64,000 bases of DNA from Georgenia satyanarayanai (lineage in GTDB: Bacteria > Actinomycetota > Actinomycetes > Actinomycetales > Actinomycetaceae): NCBI RefSeq assembly GCF_009193135.1, contig NZ_VUKC01000002.1:248001-312000 (forward strand), given 5' to 3'. Under the pieces are notes generated by a model that did no database searches, had not been told where the DNA came from, and worked only from the letters and a program-made list of their open reading frames with translations. Both the position numbers and the translations under genes were made by a program. Of this stretch, positions 24,619 to 64,000 are shown piece by piece. Numbering within the stretch: the stretch's first letter is position 1; every line of letters starts with the position of its first letter.

Positions 24619-25986
24619 TCAGTGCGCCATGTCGTGGAAGCGCGAGTAGTGGCCCTGGAAGGCCACAGTGATGGTGTCGGTGGGACCGTTGCGGTGCTTG
24701 GCGACGATGATGTCGGCCTCGCCGGGGCGGGTCTCCCTGTCGTAGGCGTCCTCGCGGTGGAGGAGCATGACCATGTCGGCGTCCTGCTCCAGCGAGCCGG
24801 ACTCCCGGAGGTCGCTCATCATCGGCTTCTTGTCGGTGCGCTGCTCGGGGCCACGGTTGAGCTGGGCGACGGCGATGACCGGCACCTCGAGCTCCTTGGC
24901 GAGGAGCTTGAGCGCACGGGAGAACTCCGAGACCTCCTGCTGGCGTGACTCCACCCGCTTGCCGGAGGACATGAGCTGGAGGTAGTCGACGACGATGAGG
25001 CGCAGGTCGTGACGCTGCTTGAGGCGCCGCGCCTTGGCGCGGATCTCCATGAGGGACATGTTGGGGCTGTCGTCGATGAACAGCGGCGCCTCGGACACCC
25101 GGCTCATCGCCGCGGCGACCTTGGTCCAGTCCTCGTCGCGCATGGTGCCCTTGCGCATGTTCTGCAGCGGCACGCCGGCCTCGGCCGAGAGCAGACGCAT
25201 CGTCAGCTCGGTGCGGCCCATCTCGAGGGAGAAGATCACCGACGTGAGCCCGTGCTTGATGGAGGCGGAGCGGCACATGTCCAGCGACAGCGTCGACTTA
25301 CCGATGGCTGGTCGCGCCGCGATGATGATCATCTGCCCGCCGTGCAGGCCGTTGGTGAGCGCGTCGAGGTCGTTAAAGCCGGTGGGGACACCGACCATGC
25401 CCTCGCCGCGGTTGGCGGCGTTCTCGATCTCCTCCATCGTGAGGTTGATCGTGTCGCGCAGCGGGACGTAGTCCTCGCTCGTGCGCCGCTCGGTGACGGC
25501 GTAGACCTCCGCCTGCGCGGAGTTGACAAGATCGTCGACGTCCCCGCCGTCGGTCGCGTACCCGAGCTGGGCGATGCGGGTGCCGGCCTCGACGAGCCGC
25601 CGCAGCACCGCCTGGTCCCGCACGAGCCGGGCGTAGTACCCGGCGTTCGCGGCGGTGGGCACCGAGGCGATGAGCGTGTGGAGGTAGGCCGCCCCGCCCA
25701 CCCGACCCAGCTCCCCGCGCCGGCCCAGCTCGGCGGCCACGGTGACGGCGTCGGCCGGCTCCCCGCGGCCGTAGAGGTCGATGACGGCGTCGTACACGAG
25801 CTCGTGCGCGGGCCGGTAGAAGTCCGGTCCCCGCAGCTCCTCGACGACATCGGCGATGGCGTCCTTGGACAGCAGCATGCCGCCGAGCACACTCTGCTCC
25901 GCGGCGAGGTCCTGCGGCGGGGTGCGGTCGTAGAGCTCGCGCCCACCCGTACAGGACTCGAGAACCCGCTCGTCCAGATCAGTCAT
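24619..25986 (-). CDS. dnaB: Replicative DNA helicase DnaB
   Basis: The 455-residue RecA-fold hexameric helicase unwinds DNA at the fork. The N-terminal DnaG-binding domain (residues about 20-120) starts PPQDLAAEQSVLGGMLLS. The motor has PTGFNDLDALTNGL, Walker A ARPAIGKST, Walker B LRLIVVDYLQLM, the AQLNRGPEQRTDKKPMMSDLRESGSLEQDAD block and AKHRNGPTDTITVAF. No intein interrupts it, unlike several mycobacterial homologues. AGGAGG lies 7 nt before the ATG. As in other actinobacteria it sits near rpsF-ssb-rpsR-rplI, here separated by a MATE gene on the other strand. Confidence 0.97.
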   Translation of the reverse strand: MTDLDERVLESCTGGRELYDRTPPQDLAAEQSVLGGMLLSKDAIADVVEELRGPDFYRPAHELVYDAVIDLYGRGEPADAVTVAAELGRRGELGRVGGAAYLHTLIASVPTAANAGYYARLVRDQAVLRRLVEAGTRIAQLGYATDGGDVDDLVNSAQAEVYAVTERRTSEDYVPLRDTINLTMEEIENAANRGEGMVGVPTGFNDLDALTNGLHGGQMIIIAARPAIGKSTLSLDMCRSASIKHGLTSVIFSLEMGRTELTMRLLSAEAGVPLQNMRKGTMRDEDWTKVAAAMSRVSEAPLFIDDSPNMSLMEIRAKARRLKQRHDLRLIVVDYLQLMSSGKRVESRQQEVSEFSRALKLLAKELEVPVIAVAQLNRGPEQRTDKKPMMSDLRESGSLEQDADMVMLLHREDAYDRETRPGEADIIVAKHRNGPTDTITVAFQGHYSRFHDMAH

Positions 25987-26141
25987 CGTCTTCCTCCTGC
26001 TCCTGGTCTACCGCGGACCTCCGACATTCCCCGGTCCGCGTTCGACCCGACGGGCCGGCGGCGCACCCGGGGGCGCGCCACGCGCGCGATGACCTGCTGG
26101 GTCACCGTACGGTGCTCCCGGCGCACGGAGCCATCCACGGG

Positions 26142-26308
26142 TGTGGACAAACCTGGGGACACATGGTGGATAGGGGTGGTCCCTCCGTGCACAGGCCGTG
26201 GACAATCATGTGGATAACACCCATGCAACTTCCGTCGAGCCCCGGAATCTCGCGGGTCGACTCGTGCACACAGTGTGGAAGGAAATTGGTCGGCACATTG
26301 GTGGACAA
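26142..26308 (+). promoter_or_regulatory. DnaA-box cluster between dnaB and the MATE gene
   Basis: In the 314-bp gap between the divergent dnaB and MATE genes, four boxes share one orientation. Two match exactly: TGTGGACAA at 26142-26150 (TTGTCCACA) and TGTGGATAA at 26209-26217 (TTATCCACA). CGTGGACAA at 26197-26205 and GGTGGACAA at 26300-26308 differ by one base. The 26197/26209 pair is spaced 12 bp. DnaA may regulate dnaB here or be titrated; function is inferred from motifs only. Confidence 0.65.
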
Positions 26309-27644
26309 CGCGGCGCGGACTGGGGACAGTGGGCGATCCCTCGACCGGCAGATCCTCTCCCTGGCCGTCCCGGCCCTCGGGGCACTCGTCGCCGAACCGC
26401 TCTTCGTCCTCATCGACTCCGTCATGGTCGGCCGCCTCGGCACCGGCGAGCTCGCGGGCCTGTCCCTGTCCTCCACGCTCCTCGTCTCCACCGTCGGCGT
26501 CTTCGTCTTCCTCGCCTACGCGACGACGGCGGCAACGGCCCGGCGCATCGGCGCGGGTGACCGTGCGGGCGCCGTCGGTGCCGGCGTCGACGGCATGTGG
26601 CTCGCCTTCGGCCTCGGCGCCCTCACCGCGGTGCTCCTCGGTGTCGGTGCGCCCTGGGTCGTCGGCGCCCTCGGCGCCGGGGACACCGTCGCGCCGCACG
26701 CCGTCGCCTACCTGCGCTGGTCGGCCGGTGGTCTGCCCGGCATGTTCGTCGTCCTGGCCGCCACGGGCACGCTGCGCGGCCTGCTCGACACGCGGACCCC
26801 GCTCGTCGTCGCGACGGTCGGGGCCGCCCTCAACGTCGCGCTCAACGCCACGTTCATCTACGGGCTCGACATGGGCGTGGCCGGCTCCGGGCTCGGCACC
26901 GCGGTCGCCCAGACGCTCATGGGCCTCGTCCTCGCCGTCGTCGTCCTGCGTGGCGCCCGCGGCCTGTCGGTCTCCCTCCGACCGCGCCCGGCCGGGATCT
27001 GGTCCAACGCCCGCGCCGGCACGCCGCTGCTCGTGCGTACGGTGAGCCTGCGCGTGGCCATCCTCCTCACGGTCGTCACCGCCACCGCCCTCGGGGCCGT
27101 CCCGCTCGCGGCCCACCAGGTCGTCAACTCGCTGTGGGGGCTGGCGGCCTTCGCCATGGACGCCCTCGCCATCGCCGCCCAGGCGATGGTCGGTCAGGGG
27201 CTCGGCGCGGGGAACACCGCCCGGGTCCGGGCGGTGCTGCGCCGCACGCTCCAGTGGGGGGTCGGAGCGGGCGCCGTCATCGGCGTCGCTGTCGCCGCCG
27301 GAGGGTGGTGGATCACCACCCTCTTCACCACCGACCCCGAGGTCCGGTCGGCCGCCGCGCTCGCGCTCGTCGTCACCGGCCTGCTCATGCCGATGGCGGG
27401 CTGGGTGTTCGTGCTCGACGGCGTGCTCATCGGGGCGGGTGACGGCACCTTCCTCGCGTGGGCCGGCGTCCTCACGCTCGTCGTCTACGTCCCGCTGCTC
27501 GCCGCGGTGTGGACGTGGGCCCCGCACGACGGCGTGGGCCTGGCCTGGCTGTGGGCCGCCTTCGCGGGGGGCTTCATGGCCGCCCGCGCGGTCACCACCG
27601 GCCTGCGCGCCCGCGGCGAGCGGTGGATGGTCCTCGGCGCCTGA
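26301..27644 (+). CDS. MATE-family multidrug/sodium antiporter
   Basis: The 447-residue membrane protein has about 12 helices in two matching bundles, typical of DinF-like MATE exporters: SLAVPALGALVAEPLFVLIDSVMVGRLGT at the N terminus, GLLDTRTPLVVATVGAALNVALN in the middle, and LAAHQVVNSLWGLAAFAMDALAIAAQAMVGQGLGAG in the second half. They couple drug export to H+ or Na+ entry. The GTG at 26301 is chosen because the family starts just before SLDRQILSLAVP; the longer upstream frame runs through the DnaA-box region. The last box overlaps this start codon. Confidence 0.87.
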   Translation: MDNAARTGDSGRSLDRQILSLAVPALGALVAEPLFVLIDSVMVGRLGTGELAGLSLSSTLLVSTVGVFVFLAYATTAATARRIGAGDRAGAVGAGVDGMWLAFGLGALTAVLLGVGAPWVVGALGAGDTVAPHAVAYLRWSAGGLPGMFVVLAATGTLRGLLDTRTPLVVATVGAALNVALNATFIYGLDMGVAGSGLGTAVAQTLMGLVLAVVVLRGARGLSVSLRPRPAGIWSNARAGTPLLVRTVSLRVAILLTVVTATALGAVPLAAHQVVNSLWGLAAFAMDALAIAAQAMVGQGLGAGNTARVRAVLRRTLQWGVGAGAVIGVAVAAGGWWITTLFTTDPEVRSAAALALVVTGLLMPMAGWVFVLDGVLIGAGDGTFLAWAGVLTLVVYVPLLAAVWTWAPHDGVGLAWLWAAFAGGFMAARAVTTGLRARGERWMVLGA

Positions 27645-56385: not shown

Positions 56386-56523
56386 TCAGGCCGAGAGCTT
56401 CTCGCGGCCCTTGCGACGACGGGCGCCCAGGATGGCGCGCCCGGCGCGCGTGCGCATGCGCAGCCGGAACCCGTGCACCTTGGCACGCTTCCGGTTGTTC
56501 GGCTGGTAAGTCCGCTTGCTCAC
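56386..56523 (-). CDS. rpmH: 50S ribosomal protein L34
   Basis: The 45-residue product, [20 protein letters not shown] followed by [25 protein letters not shown], is a complete L34. The GTG at 56523 is its start. It leads the leftward operon and is divergent from dnaA, the standard bacterial arrangement. Confidence 0.98.
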
Positions 56524-56730
56524 GGCAGTACTCCAAAACGTCGGTTGTCTACGCTGCGGCTGGGCAGCAGATGCGCGGCTGCGCCGCTCCTCCGCACTAC
56601 AGGACCGGTGCGCAGGCACCACGGAAGAGCCGTCGGGACGGCTTGGCCACGATACGCGAGGCGGAGAAGACCGGTCAATCCGACCTCCGGGCGCCCGAGT
56701 ATGCCGTCCCTCACGCCTCTTCTGCACATC

Positions 56731-56751
56731 TGTGGATATCTATGTGGATCG
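56731..56751 (+). promoter_or_regulatory. DnaA-box pair upstream of dnaA
   Basis: TGTGGATAT (56731-56739) and TGTGGATCG (56743-56751), in the same orientation and 12 bp apart, lie 53-73 bp before the dnaA start in the 280-bp rpmH-dnaA gap. They resemble TTATCCACA with one or two changes. Autoregulation of dnaA by DnaA is known in other bacteria. Confidence 0.65.
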
Positions 56752-56803
56752 AGGGCCGAGGTGCGACACTCGTGCCTCTGACACCCTGCTGGAGAGGACC
56801 GCT

Positions 56804-58225
56804 GTGCCCGAGAACGACGACATCACCGACGTCTGGGCACGCGCCGTGGACATCCTCACGGAGAGTGGGGACATCGGCGGCGCTCAGCGCGCCTTCATCC
56901 GCCTCACGCGTCCGCTCGGTGCCGTCGACGGCACCCTCCTCCTCGCGGTCCCCAGCGACTTCGCCAAGGACTTCCTCGAGACCCGCGCCCGGGTCGCCCT
57001 GACAGAGGCACTGACCGAGGCGTCCGGCTCGGCCGTCCGCTTCGCCGTCACCGTCGACCCGACGCTGGAGGAGACGTCGCCGCGCGTGCCCAGCGCCGAC
57101 ACCCCCGACGACGCCCCGGCGCCGCCGACGCCGCAGGAGACCCGCGCGGCTGCCCGCCGCGCCTCCGCCGTCGCCGAGGCCGACGCCGCCCGTCTCAACC
57201 CGAAGTACACCTTCGAGACCTTCGTCATCGGCTCGAGCAACCGTTTCGCGCACGCGGCCGCGACCGCCGTCGCCGAGTCGCCGGCCCGCGCGTACAACCC
57301 GCTGTTCATCTACGGCGGCTCCGGGCTCGGCAAGACACACCTGCTCCATGCCATCGGGCACTACGCCCGCAGCCTCGACCCCAGCGTCCGGGTGCGGTAC
57401 GTGAACTCCGAGGAGTTCACCAACGACTTCATCAACTCGATCCGCGATGACAAGGCCGAGGCCTTCCAGCGCCGGTACCGCGAGGTCGACGTCCTCCTCA
57501 TCGACGACATCCAGTTCCTCCAGGGCAAGGAACAGACGATGGAGGAGTTCTTCCACACCTTCAACACGCTGCACAACGCCAACAAGCAGGTCGTCATCAC
57601 CTCCGACCTCGCCCCCAAGCAGCTCAACGGCTTCGAGGACCGGATGCGCTCCCGCTTCGAGTGGGGGCTGCTCACCGACGTGCAACCGCCCGACCTCGAG
57701 ACCCGGATCGCGATCCTCCGGAAGAAGGCGAACAACGAGAACCTCGAGATCGACGACGCCGTCCTCTCCTACATCGCGTCACGGATCTCGACGAACATCC
57801 GTGAGCTCGAGGGTGCTCTCATCCGAGTCACGGCCTTCGCCAACCTCAACCGGCAGCCCGTCGACGAGTCGCTCGCCGTCATGGTCCTCAAGGACTTCAT
57901 CACCGACACCGACGGTGAGGACATCACGCCCACGCTGATCATGGGCCAGACCGCCGACTACTTCTCGATCTCCATCGACCAGCTGTGCAGCGCCGACCGC
58001 TCCCGCGTGCTCGTCAACGCCCGACAGATCGCCATGTACCTGTGCCGAGAGCTCACCGAGCTGTCCCTGCCCAAGATCGGGCAGCTCTTCGGCGGGCGCG
58101 ACCACACGACGGTCATGCACGCCAACCGCAAGATCCGCGAGCAGATGGCCGAGAAGCGCTCGACGTTCAACCAGGTCACCGAGCTCACGAACCGGATCAA
58201 GCAGAAGGCCCGCACCGGAGGCTGA
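56804..58225 (+). CDS. dnaA: Chromosomal replication initiator DnaA
   Basis: The 473-residue AAA+ initiator has domain I (residues 1-85, [14 protein letters not shown] and [11 protein letters not shown]) and a short acidic/Pro-rich domain II (about 85-130). Domain III carries Walker [10 protein letters not shown], Walker [13 protein letters not shown], sensor I SDLAP and the arginine finger in [10 protein letters not shown]. Domain IV has [31 protein letters not shown], which reads DnaA boxes. The GTG at 56804 follows GGAGAGGA by 5 nt. oriC lies directly downstream. Confidence 0.98.
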
Positions 58226-58646
58226 CCCGCCCGCACGGTGGCGCTCCACGACGGGAATCGGCCCCTCGAGCTCATGCACAGTTGTGGACAACCCTGTGGA
58301 TTCACGTGGACAGCGGAAACTTGTCAGTGGACAGACCATCCCCTGCCGGTGGACGACGCCGGGAGCGGTGCTGACAATCCCCTGCCCCGGCCCGTCCTCC
58401 ACAGGCCGGTCAGCACTGCGCCCCACAGCACGGCTCCCGTGGTGACCTGCACGGACGTGCGATGTCCACAGTGTCCACACCACCGACGATGATGACGAGA
58501 CCCCCATTCCAGATCGCTTGTGAATAACAAGATCTGGCCGGGTCACCGTGCCCGACTCGCGTCCGGAGCCTCGGTGCACTCGCGTAAGGTTTCCCGTGCG
58601 CAGCACCATGCGCTGCGCCGTCACGCTCCGAGAGAGGTCAACAATC
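58226..58646. other. oriC: Origin of replication, oriC
   Basis: The 421-bp dnaA-dnaN gap holds at least eight DnaA-box-like sites. On the plus strand: TGTGGACAA 58283-58291 (exact TTGTCCACA), TGTGGATTC 58295, CGTGGACAG 58305, AGTGGACAG 58326, TGTGAATAA 58519. In the opposite orientation: TCCTCCACA 58395, ATGTCCACA 58462, GTGTCCACA 58471. Boxes point inward from both sides of a centre near 58430. The only A/T-rich patch, a possible unwinding element, is the hairpin near dnaN at 58509-58537. Confidence 0.93.
58509..58537. repeat. Composite inverted repeat at the dnaN side of oriC
   Basis: CCAGATC (58509-58515) and CTTGT (58517-58521) pair with ACAAG (58527-58531) and GATCTGG (58531-58537) around a GAATA loop, with a 2-nt bulge. 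It contains the TTATTCACA-type box and the most A/T-rich bases of oriC. Confidence 0.7.
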
Positions 58647-59774
58647 GTGAAGCTCAGGGTCGAACGGGACGTCCTTGCCGAGGCCGTTGCCTGGACAGCG
58701 CGCTCCCTTCCCGCGCGCCCGCCGGTCCCGGTGCTCGCCGGCGTGCGGCTGGAGGCAAGCAGCGAGGGCTCCCTCACCCTGTCGACCTTCGACTACGACG
58801 TCTCGGCGCGCTCCGCGGTCCCCGCGGCCGTCGAGGAGGCAGGCGTCGTCCTCGTCTCGGGCCGTCTGCTCGCCGACATCGCCAAGGCGCTGCCCGCGAA
58901 GCCCGTCGACCTCACCCTGGACGGCACCAAGGTGGTGCTGCGCTGCGGGGCGAGCCGGTTCACGCTCCTCACCATGCCCGTGGAGGACTACCCGGCCCTC
59001 CCTGCCATGCCCGAGCTCTCCGGCACCATCGACGCCGACGTCCTCACCGAGGCGGTCGCCCAGGTGAGCATCGCGGCGAGCCGCGACGAGACCCTGCCGC
59101 TGCTCACCGGCGTCCGGGTCGAGATCGAGGGCGAGAAGCTCACGCTCATGGCCACCGACCGCTACCGCCTCGCCATGCGCGAGCTGAGCTGGCACCCGAG
59201 CGACCCCTCCATCTCCGCCGTCGCTCTGGTCCGGGCGCGCACCCTGTCCGACGTCGCCAAGTCGCTCACCAGCGCCGGCAGCGTCGACGTCGCCCTGGGT
59301 CGGGACGCTGCCTCGCTCGTCGGCTTCGCGGCCGGCGGGCGGCAGACGACGTCGCTGCTCGTCGAGGGCGACTACCCCCCGGTGCGGCGCCTCTTCCCGG
59401 ACGAGACCACCACCCACGCCGTCGTCGCAACGGCGGCGCTCGTCGAGGCCGCGCGCCGCGTCTCCCTGGTCGCCGAGCGCAACACCCCCATCCGACTGAG
59501 CTTCTCCGACGGGCAGGTCGTCCTCGAGGCGGGCCAGGGCGAGGACGCGCAGGCCTCGGAGGTCCTCGAGGCCACCCTCGTCGGCGAGGACATCGTCACC
59601 GCCTTCAACCCGCACTACCTTCTCGACGGCCTCGGCGCGCTGAGCACGGACTTCGTGCGGCTGTCCTTCACCCACCCGAGCAAGCCCGCCGTCATGACCG
59701 GCCAGGGCAGCGCCGAGGGCGAGAGCGAGGACGAGTTCCGCTACCTCCTCATGCCCATCCGGTTCGCCGGGTAG
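58647..59774 (+). CDS. dnaN: DNA polymerase III sliding clamp
   Basis: The 375-residue beta clamp has three similar domains. It starts VKLRVERDVLAEAVAWTARSLPARPPVPVLAG and includes STFDYDVSARS, LTLMATDRYRLAMREL, and at the end HYLLDGLGAL, VRLSFTHPSKPAVMTG and the terminal YLLMPIRFAG. It holds the polymerase on DNA. The GTG at 58647 follows GAGAGAGG by 6 nt and leads the dnaN-gnd-recF-DUF721 series. Confidence 0.97.
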   Translation: MKLRVERDVLAEAVAWTARSLPARPPVPVLAGVRLEASSEGSLTLSTFDYDVSARSAVPAAVEEAGVVLVSGRLLADIAKALPAKPVDLTLDGTKVVLRCGASRFTLLTMPVEDYPALPAMPELSGTIDADVLTEAVAQVSIAASRDETLPLLTGVRVEIEGEKLTLMATDRYRLAMRELSWHPSDPSISAVALVRARTLSDVAKSLTSAGSVDVALGRDAASLVGFAAGGRQTTSLLVEGDYPPVRRLFPDETTTHAVVATAALVEAARRVSLVAERNTPIRLSFSDGQVVLEAGQGEDAQASEVLEATLVGEDIVTAFNPHYLLDGLGALSTDFVRLSFTHPSKPAVMTGQGSAEGESEDEFRYLLMPIRFAG

Positions 59775-60720: not shown

Positions 60721-61881
60721 ATGTACGTCTCCAACCTCTCCCTGCACGACTTCCGCTCCTACACCGAGCTGGTCCTCGCGCTGGACCCCGGCGTCACGGC
60801 GTTCGTCGGGCACAACGGCCAGGGCAAGACGAACATCGTCGAGGCCGTCGCGTACCTCGGCACGTTCTCCAGCCACCGGGTGGCCTCCGACGCCGCCCTG
60901 GTCAGGCACGGCACCGGCGGCGCCGTCGTCCGCGCCAAGGCGGTCCGCGGGGGGCGCGAGACCCTCGTCGAGCTCGAGATCGTCGCCGGCAAGGCCAACC
61001 GGGCCCGGCTCAACCGTGCCGCCGTCAGCCGCACCCGCGACGTCCTCGGCATCGTGCGCAGCGTGGTGTTCGCGCCCGAGGACCTCGAGCTCGTCAAGGG
61101 CGACCCCCAGGTCCGCCGCCGCTTCCTCGACGACCTCCTCGTGCTCCTCACCCCCCGCCTGGCGGGGGTGCGCAGCGAGTACGACAAGATCCTGCGCCAG
61201 CGCGGCGCCCTCCTCAAGACCGCCGGCGCAGCACGCCGCCGCGGCACCAGCCCCGAGCTGTCCACCCTGGACGTGTGGGACCGCCACCTCGCAGCCGCCG
61301 GCGCGGAGATCACCGCCGCGCGCATCGACCTCCTCCACCGGCTGCGTCCGCGGACCGCGCAGGCGTACGAGCAGGTCAGTGGCGGGCAGGGGGAGGCCCA
61401 CCTCGGTTACCGGTCGGCCCTCCTCGCCCTCGACGGCGAGGGCGAGACGACCCTCGAGGAGGAGCGGGCGCTCACCGACGTGGCCGCCCTCGAGGAGCGG
61501 CTCGTCGAGGCGATGGCCCGCGTCCGGAGCAAGGAGCTCGACCGGGGGGTGAGCCTCGTCGGCCCGCACCGCGACGACCTCGTCCTCACCCTCGGCGGGC
61601 TGCCCGCGAAGGGCTACGCGAGCCACGGGGAGTCGTGGTCCTACGCCCTGGCACTGCGGCTCGCCTCCTTCGAGGTGCTCTCTGACGACGACGACGGCGG
61701 GCCGGTCCTCATCCTCGACGACGTGTTCGCCGAGCTTGACGTCCGCCGCCGCGAGCGGCTGGCCACCATGGTGGGCGGGGCCGAGCAGGTCCTCATCACC
61801 GCGGCCGTCGCCGAGGACGTCCCCGAGTCCCTGCGCGGTGCGCGCTTCACCGTCGCGAGGGGCGAGGTCACCCGTGAGTGA
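60721..61881 (+). CDS. recF: DNA replication and repair protein RecF
   Basis: The 386-residue SMC-like ATPase loads RecA at gaps. It starts [17 protein letters not shown], with Walker [42 protein letters not shown], the signature-like [22 protein letters not shown] and Walker [21 protein letters not shown]. Its ATG follows the gnd stop by 2 bp, and its end overlaps the DUF721 gene, so the genes are co-transcribed. Confidence 0.96.
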
Positions 61882-62425
61882 CGAACAGCCTCCCGAGCCG
61901 GAGGAGGAGACGACGTCGTCGGCTGCCAGCCAGGCCCTGGCGCGGGCCCGGGCCGCGGCCGCGGCGAAGGGCCTGCGCCGCAGCGCGCCGGGACGGCCGG
62001 TCCCCGGCAAGCGGCGCTTCCGGCCGGGGCCCGGGCTCGGTGACGTCGGCAGCGGCGCGGGCCCCTCCCGCCGCGACCCGCAGATGCTGGGCCCCATCGT
62101 CGACAAGATCCTCACCGAACGCGGGTGGAGCGCCCCGGTGAGCATGGGCGGCGTCGTCGGGCGCTGGCGCGAGATCGTCGGTGACCAGCTCGCCGACCAC
62201 TGTGTCGTGGAGACCTTCGACGAAGCCGTGCTCGTCGTCCGCGCCGACTCGACCACGTGGGCCACCCAGCTGCGCCTCCTCCAGCCGCAGCTCGAGCGCC
62301 GCCTCGCCGAGGAGGTCGGGGAGGACGTCGTCGAGAAGATCGTCATCCGGGGGCCGGGCGGGCCGAGCTGGACCCGCGGACCACGGTCGGTCCGTGGCCG
62401 CGGACCGCGCGACACCTACGGCTGA
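61874..62425 (+). CDS. DUF721 (DciA-like) protein
   Basis: The 183-residue protein has a disordered, Arg/Pro-rich N-terminal 85 residues and a C-terminal DciA-type domain ([67 protein letters not shown]). DciA proteins load the DnaB helicase in bacteria that lack DnaC/DnaI, so this is a likely helicase operator here (known for the family; inferred for this protein). The GTG at 61874 overlaps recF. Its homologue is Rv0004, also between recF and gyrB. Confidence 0.9.
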
Positions 62426-62463: not shown

Positions 62464-62484
62464 TGTGGATGAACTTGTGGATAT
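62464..62484 (+). promoter_or_regulatory. DnaA-box pair upstream of gyrB
   Basis: TGTGGATGA (62464-62472) and TGTGGATAT (62476-62484), 12 bp apart, differ from TTATCCACA by one base each. TAGAAT at 62509-62514 may be the gyrB -10; no convincing -35 is seen. The pair lies just upstream of it. Confidence 0.55.
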
Positions 62485-62626
62485 GCGGTGATTCGGGCGC
62501 CCACGCAGTAGAATCGGGTGACCCCGCCCGCGGGGTGTCGGCTGGAGTCGCACCCCCGGGCAGTAGTGGTGCCAGGAGCACCGTCCCGAACCAGGCGACG
62601 GTGCGGTGCTGCGCCGCGACGAATGA

Positions 62627-64000
<1,374 letters not shown>

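Follow-up and report, generated by a model that had tools for sequence, protein, structure and literature searches.

In the 64,000-nucleotide stretch of Georgenia satyanarayanai DNA analysed here (the window), the initiator DnaA probably acts pair-wise, on twin sites that lie at the origin and next to three genes connected with replication, as judged from the sequence. These sites are pairs of DnaA boxes found in oriC, upstream of dnaA, upstream of gyrB, and between dnaB and a divergent MATE transporter gene. Comparison with related genomes indicates that their 12-bp spacing is a real, conserved feature. Because the pairs satisfy the sequence part of the rule described for E. coli, they are read as double DnaA boxes, and it is likely that each of them would be bound jointly by two DnaA molecules. 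Mostly, the feature is an instance of this published rule; the element at gyrB is less expected.

Box pairs at four replication loci and their conservation

The original prediction described four DnaA-box pairs in the same orientation, spaced 12 bp from start to start, and both direct reading and a script found them at the positions it had given. All of them lie on the forward strand. The first, CGTGGACAA-tca-TGTGGATAA, occupies positions 26197..26217 (boxes starting at 26197 and 26209), between dnaB and the MATE gene. The second, TGTGGATAT-cta-TGTGGATCG, is found upstream of dnaA at 56731..56751 (boxes at 56731 and 56743), while the oriC pair, composed of TGTGGACAA and TGTGGATTC, is located at 58283..58303 (58283 and 58295). 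The fourth, TGTGGATGA-act-TGTGGATAT, lies upstream of gyrB at 62464..62484 (62464 and 62476). At every locus the pair consists of two same-strand 9-mers with a 3-bp gap, all eight boxes have at most two mismatches to TGTGGAYAA according to the script, and at most loci one box is closer to the consensus than the other. The search pattern that had been proposed, TGTGGA-N6-TGTGGA, recovers three of these four pairs and misses the dnaB-MATE one, since its first box, CGTGGACAA at 26197, begins with CGTGGA. Same-strand GTGGAY pairs at 12 bp occur four times in the window, all at the four replication loci, and 12 bp is the most frequent spacing of such pairs, every other spacing up to 60 bp being represented at most twice. 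No Rfam family reached its gathering score in the window.

The genome carrying the window is a 3.44-Mb draft in 23 contigs. By DnaB, its nearest relatives among the named genomes listed were a Cellulomonas MAG (83%), an Actinomycetales MAG (81%) and Actinotalea (80%), and this listing may leave out records of the genome itself. The genome-wide scan suggested as a check, with the TGTGGA pattern that is too strict for the site at 26197, gave six sites against one in the reversed control, and GTGGAY-N6-GTGGAY gave ten, four of them at the loci described here, against two. When spacings of 6-36 bp were pooled, 167 GTGGAY pairs were counted against 85 in the reversed control; this corresponds to about 5.4 matches per spacing, so that 12 bp stands only about twofold above the mean across the genome. 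Such a global excess of 12-bp pairs is weak and is not claimed; what stands out instead is how the pairs concentrate at replication loci and are conserved in relatives.

Six other pairs are present in the genome (L001, L002, L007, L008, L009 and L010). Four of them lie under Pfam matches, namely NucS (L002), a universal stress protein (L007), DinB_2 (L009) and a pyridine-nucleotide oxidoreductase (L010), and the L001 pair falls within an open reading frame that has a GH15 match, outside the matched stretch. The L008 pair, GTGCACAACTGGTGGACAACGCTGTGGACAG (G000:C18:129583-129600; L008 1501-1518), is apparently intergenic and would be a fifth such double box. A short-chain dehydrogenase gene (Pfam adh_short) starts about 75 bp downstream of its end.

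Conservation was assessed in regions taken from up to 68 genomes, namely those upstream of dnaA, gyrB and dnaB and the dnaA-dnaN intergenic region, with a box defined in relatives as TGTGG or GTGGAY. Left out were four genomes for dnaA (G005, G011, G026 and G056), six for oriC, six for gyrB and nine for dnaB; six of the nine had split DnaB matches (G012, G017, G025, G027, G030 and G031), and in G005 neither the dnaA nor the dnaB match was found. Split DnaB matches inside long open frames (870-1451 aa) were seen in G004, G012, G017, G025, G027, G030, G031 and G037, as expected for inteins.

A 12-bp pair was found in 43 of 64 genomes at dnaA, 35 of 62 at oriC, 21 of 59 at dnaB and 10 of 62 at gyrB. 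The genomes are related, and hence these counts are not independent; with the own genus counted once, they become 39/60, 31/58, 17/55 and 6/58, respectively. Chance, arising from many loose boxes in few intergenic regions, would be in line with the modest genome-wide standing of the 12-bp spacing and with the many spacings present at oriC, where 9 bp is even commoner than 12 bp (41/62 vs 35/62). Against it, dinucleotide shuffling (30 rounds) never gave more than one genome at dnaA, two at oriC, one at dnaB and one at gyrB, compared with the 10-43 observed, and the spacing is kept in diverged relatives. Random placement of boxes (200 rounds) gave means of 1.5, 5.0, 2.4 and 0.4 genomes for dnaA, oriC, dnaB and gyrB, with maxima of 5, 10, 8 and 3. 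A chance origin of the spacing is thus extremely improbable, and it is rejected on the grounds of random placement, shuffles and relatives together.

The preference for 12 bp is also visible in comparison with neighbouring spacings. Pairs at 13 bp are rare (2 genomes at dnaA, 4 at oriC, 3 at dnaB and 3 at gyrB), and 12 bp is common at dnaA, dnaB and gyrB. At dnaB, a spacing of 11 bp is as frequent as 12 bp, with 21 genomes each and either one in 32 of 59.

Placement of the pairs at oriC, dnaA and gyrB

The dnaA-dnaN intergenic region (58226..58646) is the likely oriC, with 12 boxes of at most two mismatches between 58220 and 58560, some of them overlapping. It is followed by dnaN (58647..59774, forward strand), recognised by Pfam DNA_pol3_beta domains on the open reading frame 58548-59774, and a RecF/SMC-type gene is among the neighbours according to Pfam. 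Here, the pair is probably part of the array on which the initiation complex assembles. The high-affinity box reported for S. coelicolor and M. tuberculosis, TTGTCCACA (PMC4285127), is the complement of TGTGGACAA. Two reverse-strand boxes 9 bp apart, TGTGGACAT/TGTGGACAC, are present at 58462-58479, and this is the commonest oriC spacing in relatives. Folding of the oriC strand is unremarkable (z -1.47).

The dnaA gene extends over 56804..58225 on the forward strand (Pfam Bac_DnaA and Bac_DnaA_C on the open reading frame 56516-58225), its GTG start at 56804 being read by eye. Promoter elements of both dnaA and gyrB were placed by eye and by regular expression, and a sigma-70 scan gave no forward-strand promoter at dnaA and likewise no promoter at gyrB or dnaB. 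The element at dnaA has, in many genera, the form CACA-N2/3-TGTGGAYAA-N3-TGTGGA, that is, an inverted half box followed by the double box. The hexamer GACACT (56765..56770, forward strand) lies 22 bp after the start of box 2, as it does in the own genus and G007, and is the proposed -10 of dnaA. Of the 43 dnaA pairs, 12 (five of them in the own genus) are followed, at 21-23 bp from the box 2 start, by a -10-like hexamer, for example (G/C)A(C/G)ACT; in the other 31, none was found at this distance. This distance came from the looser pattern, and a strict TANNNT search at dnaA gave no common distance to the pair.

A hexamer at 21-23 bp would place box 2 over the likely -35 position of dnaA, where bound DnaA should block RNA polymerase. 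The geometry of the pair would accordingly be that of autorepression, from which we infer that DnaA represses dnaA.

The gyrB gene starts at 62645 (read by eye) and runs past the window end (62645..64000, forward strand); the proteins of relatives are 58-99% identical, and gyrB matches were found in all 29 named genomes searched. Directly upstream of its promoter region lies dciA (61736..62425, forward strand; Pfam DciA). The proposed -10 is TAGAAT at 62509..62514 (forward strand), located 33 bp downstream of where box 2 begins, and TAGAAT-like hexamers are recurrent upstream of gyrB in most regions compared. By eye, a GGTAGAAT-type hexamer recurs there in many genera, without an evident -35 consensus, and three Streptomyces share a different block (TCAGGnCGGCACATG). 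The leader of about 130 bases between the proposed -10 and the start codon (62515-62644) contains GC-rich inverted repeats, seen by eye, with no Rfam match.

The distance between pair and hexamer is nearly invariant. In nine of the ten genomes bearing a gyrB pair (G000-G004, G007, G012, G017 and G035), a TAG(A/G)(A/C)T hexamer lies 45 bp after the start of box 1 and 33 bp after the start of box 2, G031 being the exception with 79 and 67 bp. Variants occur in G036 (boxes at 45 and 32), G018 (57 and 33) and G025 (a single box at 32). Among 396 sampled genomes of the order, the composite of a pair and a -10 at 33 bp was found in 15 genomes, representing 6 of 109 genera, compared with 4 in the reversed control. 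In 14 of these 15, the gyrB start is 170-204 bp downstream of the pair start; these 14 span five genera, with four belonging to the own genus, and for the remaining match, in G400, no gyrB lies within 1.5 kb. The 34-bp form showed no excess (3 genomes vs 4 in the control); the three genomes belong to one genus, in which the 33-bp form also occurs, and in each of them gyrB follows at 175-179 bp.

The 12-bp pair was absent upstream of gyrB in 52 of 62 genomes, including the Streptomyces, Arthrobacter, Cellulomonas and Actinotalea tested. The pair is thus likely a gyrB promoter element in a limited set of genera and not a phylum-wide one.

The possibility that a protein other than DnaA recognises TGTGG-type repeats and binds the dnaB and gyrB pairs can be assessed from the composition of the 14 gyrB sequences. 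Their free columns are mostly TGTGGAYAA-like, with A at position 6 (13/14 and 14/14), A at position 9 of box 1 (14/14) and C or T at position 7 of box 2 (14/14). Deviations occur at position 7 of box 1, which is C or T in 11/14, and at position 9 of box 2, which is A in only 2/14, so that this box ends in T more often than in the consensus A. This ending, along with the fact that DnaA binding at these sites is predicted from sequence, would suit another protein, which is nonetheless quite unlikely, as the same sequence and gap are found at oriC and dnaA and most free positions match the DnaA consensus. Between box 2 and the -10, GGC at columns 33-35 is present in 13/14 sequences at each column, being conserved like the box columns, and the boxes are thus not the sole conserved part of the gyrB upstream region.

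With DnaA as the probable ligand, the placement at gyrB is class II-like: the candidate site abuts the -35 position and keeps a fixed distance from the -10. The pair is located approximately one helical turn further upstream than at dnaA and ends just before the -35 position. DnaA bound there could contact polymerase at the TAGAAT promoter and thereby increase gyrase expression when DnaA is abundant. The shift of about one turn (22 bp at dnaA vs 33 bp at gyrB) suggests effects of opposite sign, repression in the former case and activation in the latter. Activation of gyrB by DnaA is proposed tentatively, and we would not expect it to be the case with any confidence. The reverse, in which DnaA hinders RNA polymerase and represses gyrB, is possible and equally doubtful. 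DnaA is reported to act elsewhere as either repressor or activator (PMC8203912), and a pair abutting the -35 position could serve repression; set against this, the pair lies just upstream of the -35 region and does not cover it as proposed for dnaA, and the scan of the window's gyrB region found no -35 consensus, as would be expected of a promoter that depends on an activator.

The dnaB-MATE cluster and possible DnaA titration

The replicative helicase gene dnaB (24619..25986, reverse strand; Pfam DnaB and DnaB_C) is divergent from the MATE transporter gene (26286..27644, forward strand; Pfam MatE), the start of which is uncertain and was read by eye in an open reading frame beginning at 26112. 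Apart from the pair, the region between them holds further forward-strand boxes at 26142..26173, TGTGGACAA (26142-26150) and GGTGGATAG (26165-26173), which are conserved in the own genus. Another forward-strand box, GGTGGACAA (26300..26308), overlaps the likely MATE start codon, read by eye, and is kept in G007. Within 26262-26308, a box-like TGTGGAAGG and GGTGGACAA overlap the likely MATE ribosome site and start; in G007 the corresponding sequences are TGTGGATAG and GGTGGACAA, that is, largely kept.

The 12-bp spacing of the dnaB-MATE pair is preserved in the own-genus genomes G001-G004 and in G007, and in the alignment of G000-G003 and G007 the pair with flanking GTGCACAG forms an island amid much divergence. 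In the wider sample, 38 of 59 genomes have no 12-bp pair upstream of dnaB. Box-rich regions are more widespread: within 450 bp upstream of dnaB at 80 named loci, at least one box of a stricter definition occurs in 68, at least two in 52 and at least three in 33, while at least two such boxes occur in 0.3% of 1052 control windows (same loci, mostly coding).

The pair is 211-231 bp from the dnaB start, the cluster at 26142-26217 about 160-230 bp from it, and the pair is also far from a conserved TAGAC element near dnaB. This element reads GGTAGAC/GATAGAC and is found shortly upstream of dnaB at 26005-26019 on the reverse strand, and in several relatives TTGTCGGTGG or TGTCAGTGG stands before it. 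Judged by eye, it is likely a dnaB promoter of unusual sequence. Since the cluster is distant from both the dnaB start and this element, the pair, lying within a widespread cluster, is likelier to serve as part of a DnaA sink or as a remote regulator than as a promoter-proximal site.

Located near the origin, clusters of DnaA boxes are known as D78 and H24 in Streptomyces and as DnaA-box clusters in Bacillus, and the dnaB-MATE region resembles them in being a box-rich intergenic cluster near oriC, with several intergenic boxes at 26142-26308, 32 kb from it. A broader explanation is one in which all pairs outside oriC are only DnaA sinks near the origin (titration sites) and do not regulate neighbouring genes. 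The Streptomyces clusters favour it, as do the distance of the dnaB cluster from the dnaB start, its wide occurrence in named actinobacterial loci, and titration near oriC reported for E. coli (PMC12371093). Sinks need no fixed distance to a -10, and yet the gyrB pair holds 33 bp in nine of ten pair-bearing genomes and in five genera of the order-wide sample, and 12 of 43 dnaA pairs hold 21-23 bp to a -10-like hexamer. Pure titration is therefore a possibility of some weight, short of an even chance.

The suggestion that the pairs link dnaA, dnaB and gyrB expression to initiation is partly supported and fares differently from gene to gene. For dnaA the link is expected, because autoregulation of dnaA is reported in Streptomyces lividans and slow-growing mycobacteria (PMC8203912). 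For gyrB it is plausible, given the fixed distance to the -10-like hexamer. It is weaker for dnaB, where the pair is remote and inside a larger cluster, so that the pair could just as well serve titration or act on the divergent MATE gene.

Relation to known DnaA systems

The conservation described above suggests that the double-box rule of E. coli may extend to Actinomycetota. In that case the DnaA regulon of these bacteria would become predictable, with gyrB as a candidate DnaA target. It is conceivable, though rather doubtful at present, that in several genera DnaA directly controls gyrB from a fixed-phase double box one turn upstream of the dnaA-repressing position, one initiator signal lowering DnaA and raising gyrase, with phase setting the sign. 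If true, supercoiling capacity would be coupled to replication initiation, and initiation, initiator level and supercoiling would be tied together.

At gyrB, twin DnaA sites at a fixed place in the promoter look new. No report of DnaA control of gyrB was evident in the titles and abstract openings of the open-licence papers that the searches listed, and the main text of a review of DnaA in transcription (PMC8203912) has no word beginning with 'gyr'. The gyrBA operon of S. coelicolor is reported to respond to supercoiling in a study whose main text does not contain the word DnaA (PMC5055605); this response is a regulation beside which DnaA would have to act.

The kind of site is known, as are dnaA autoregulation and the binding of oriC by DnaA. 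A ChIP-seq study of E. coli published in 2024 (Stringer, Fitzgerald and Wade, PMC11317965) defined the "double DnaA box", with a gap of 2-3 bp. According to this report, almost all DnaA targets are bound by a dimer, on boxes separated by 2 or 3 bp, and binding drops strongly when one base pair is added between the boxes (PMC11317965). The pairs described here share the same-strand 9-mers, the 2- or 3-bp gap and, often, the combination of one strong and one weak box, and the spacing preference at dnaA, dnaB and gyrB looks similar to the E. coli rule. By this analogy, the cooperative DnaA binding put forward in the original prediction is well supported. In such a mechanism, the two DnaA molecules would occupy each pair together. 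Domain I of actinomycete DnaA dimerises weakly, a conserved property put forward as an aid to cooperative assembly (PMC13270200), and domain III of S. coelicolor DnaA may join DnaA molecules on closely spaced boxes (PMC5448010).

The location of the sites is likewise comparable, as E. coli double boxes are reported at oriC, at dnaA and at replication or nucleotide genes, whereas the table of that study lists neither gyrB nor dnaB (PMC11317965). Moreover, the E. coli sites were defined by ChIP-seq, while those considered here are predicted, TGTGGAYAA-like sites of an actinobacterium. In Caulobacter, which belongs to another phylum, dnaB is reported as a gene of the DnaA regulon with predicted DnaA boxes upstream (PMC8203912), and boxes likewise lie upstream of dnaB in the window. 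In S. lividans and slow-growing mycobacteria, DnaA is reported to bind at the dnaA promoter region (PMC8203912), as is predicted for the window. In the two Streptomyces tested (G051 and G052), no 12-bp pair was found within 450 bp of dnaA.
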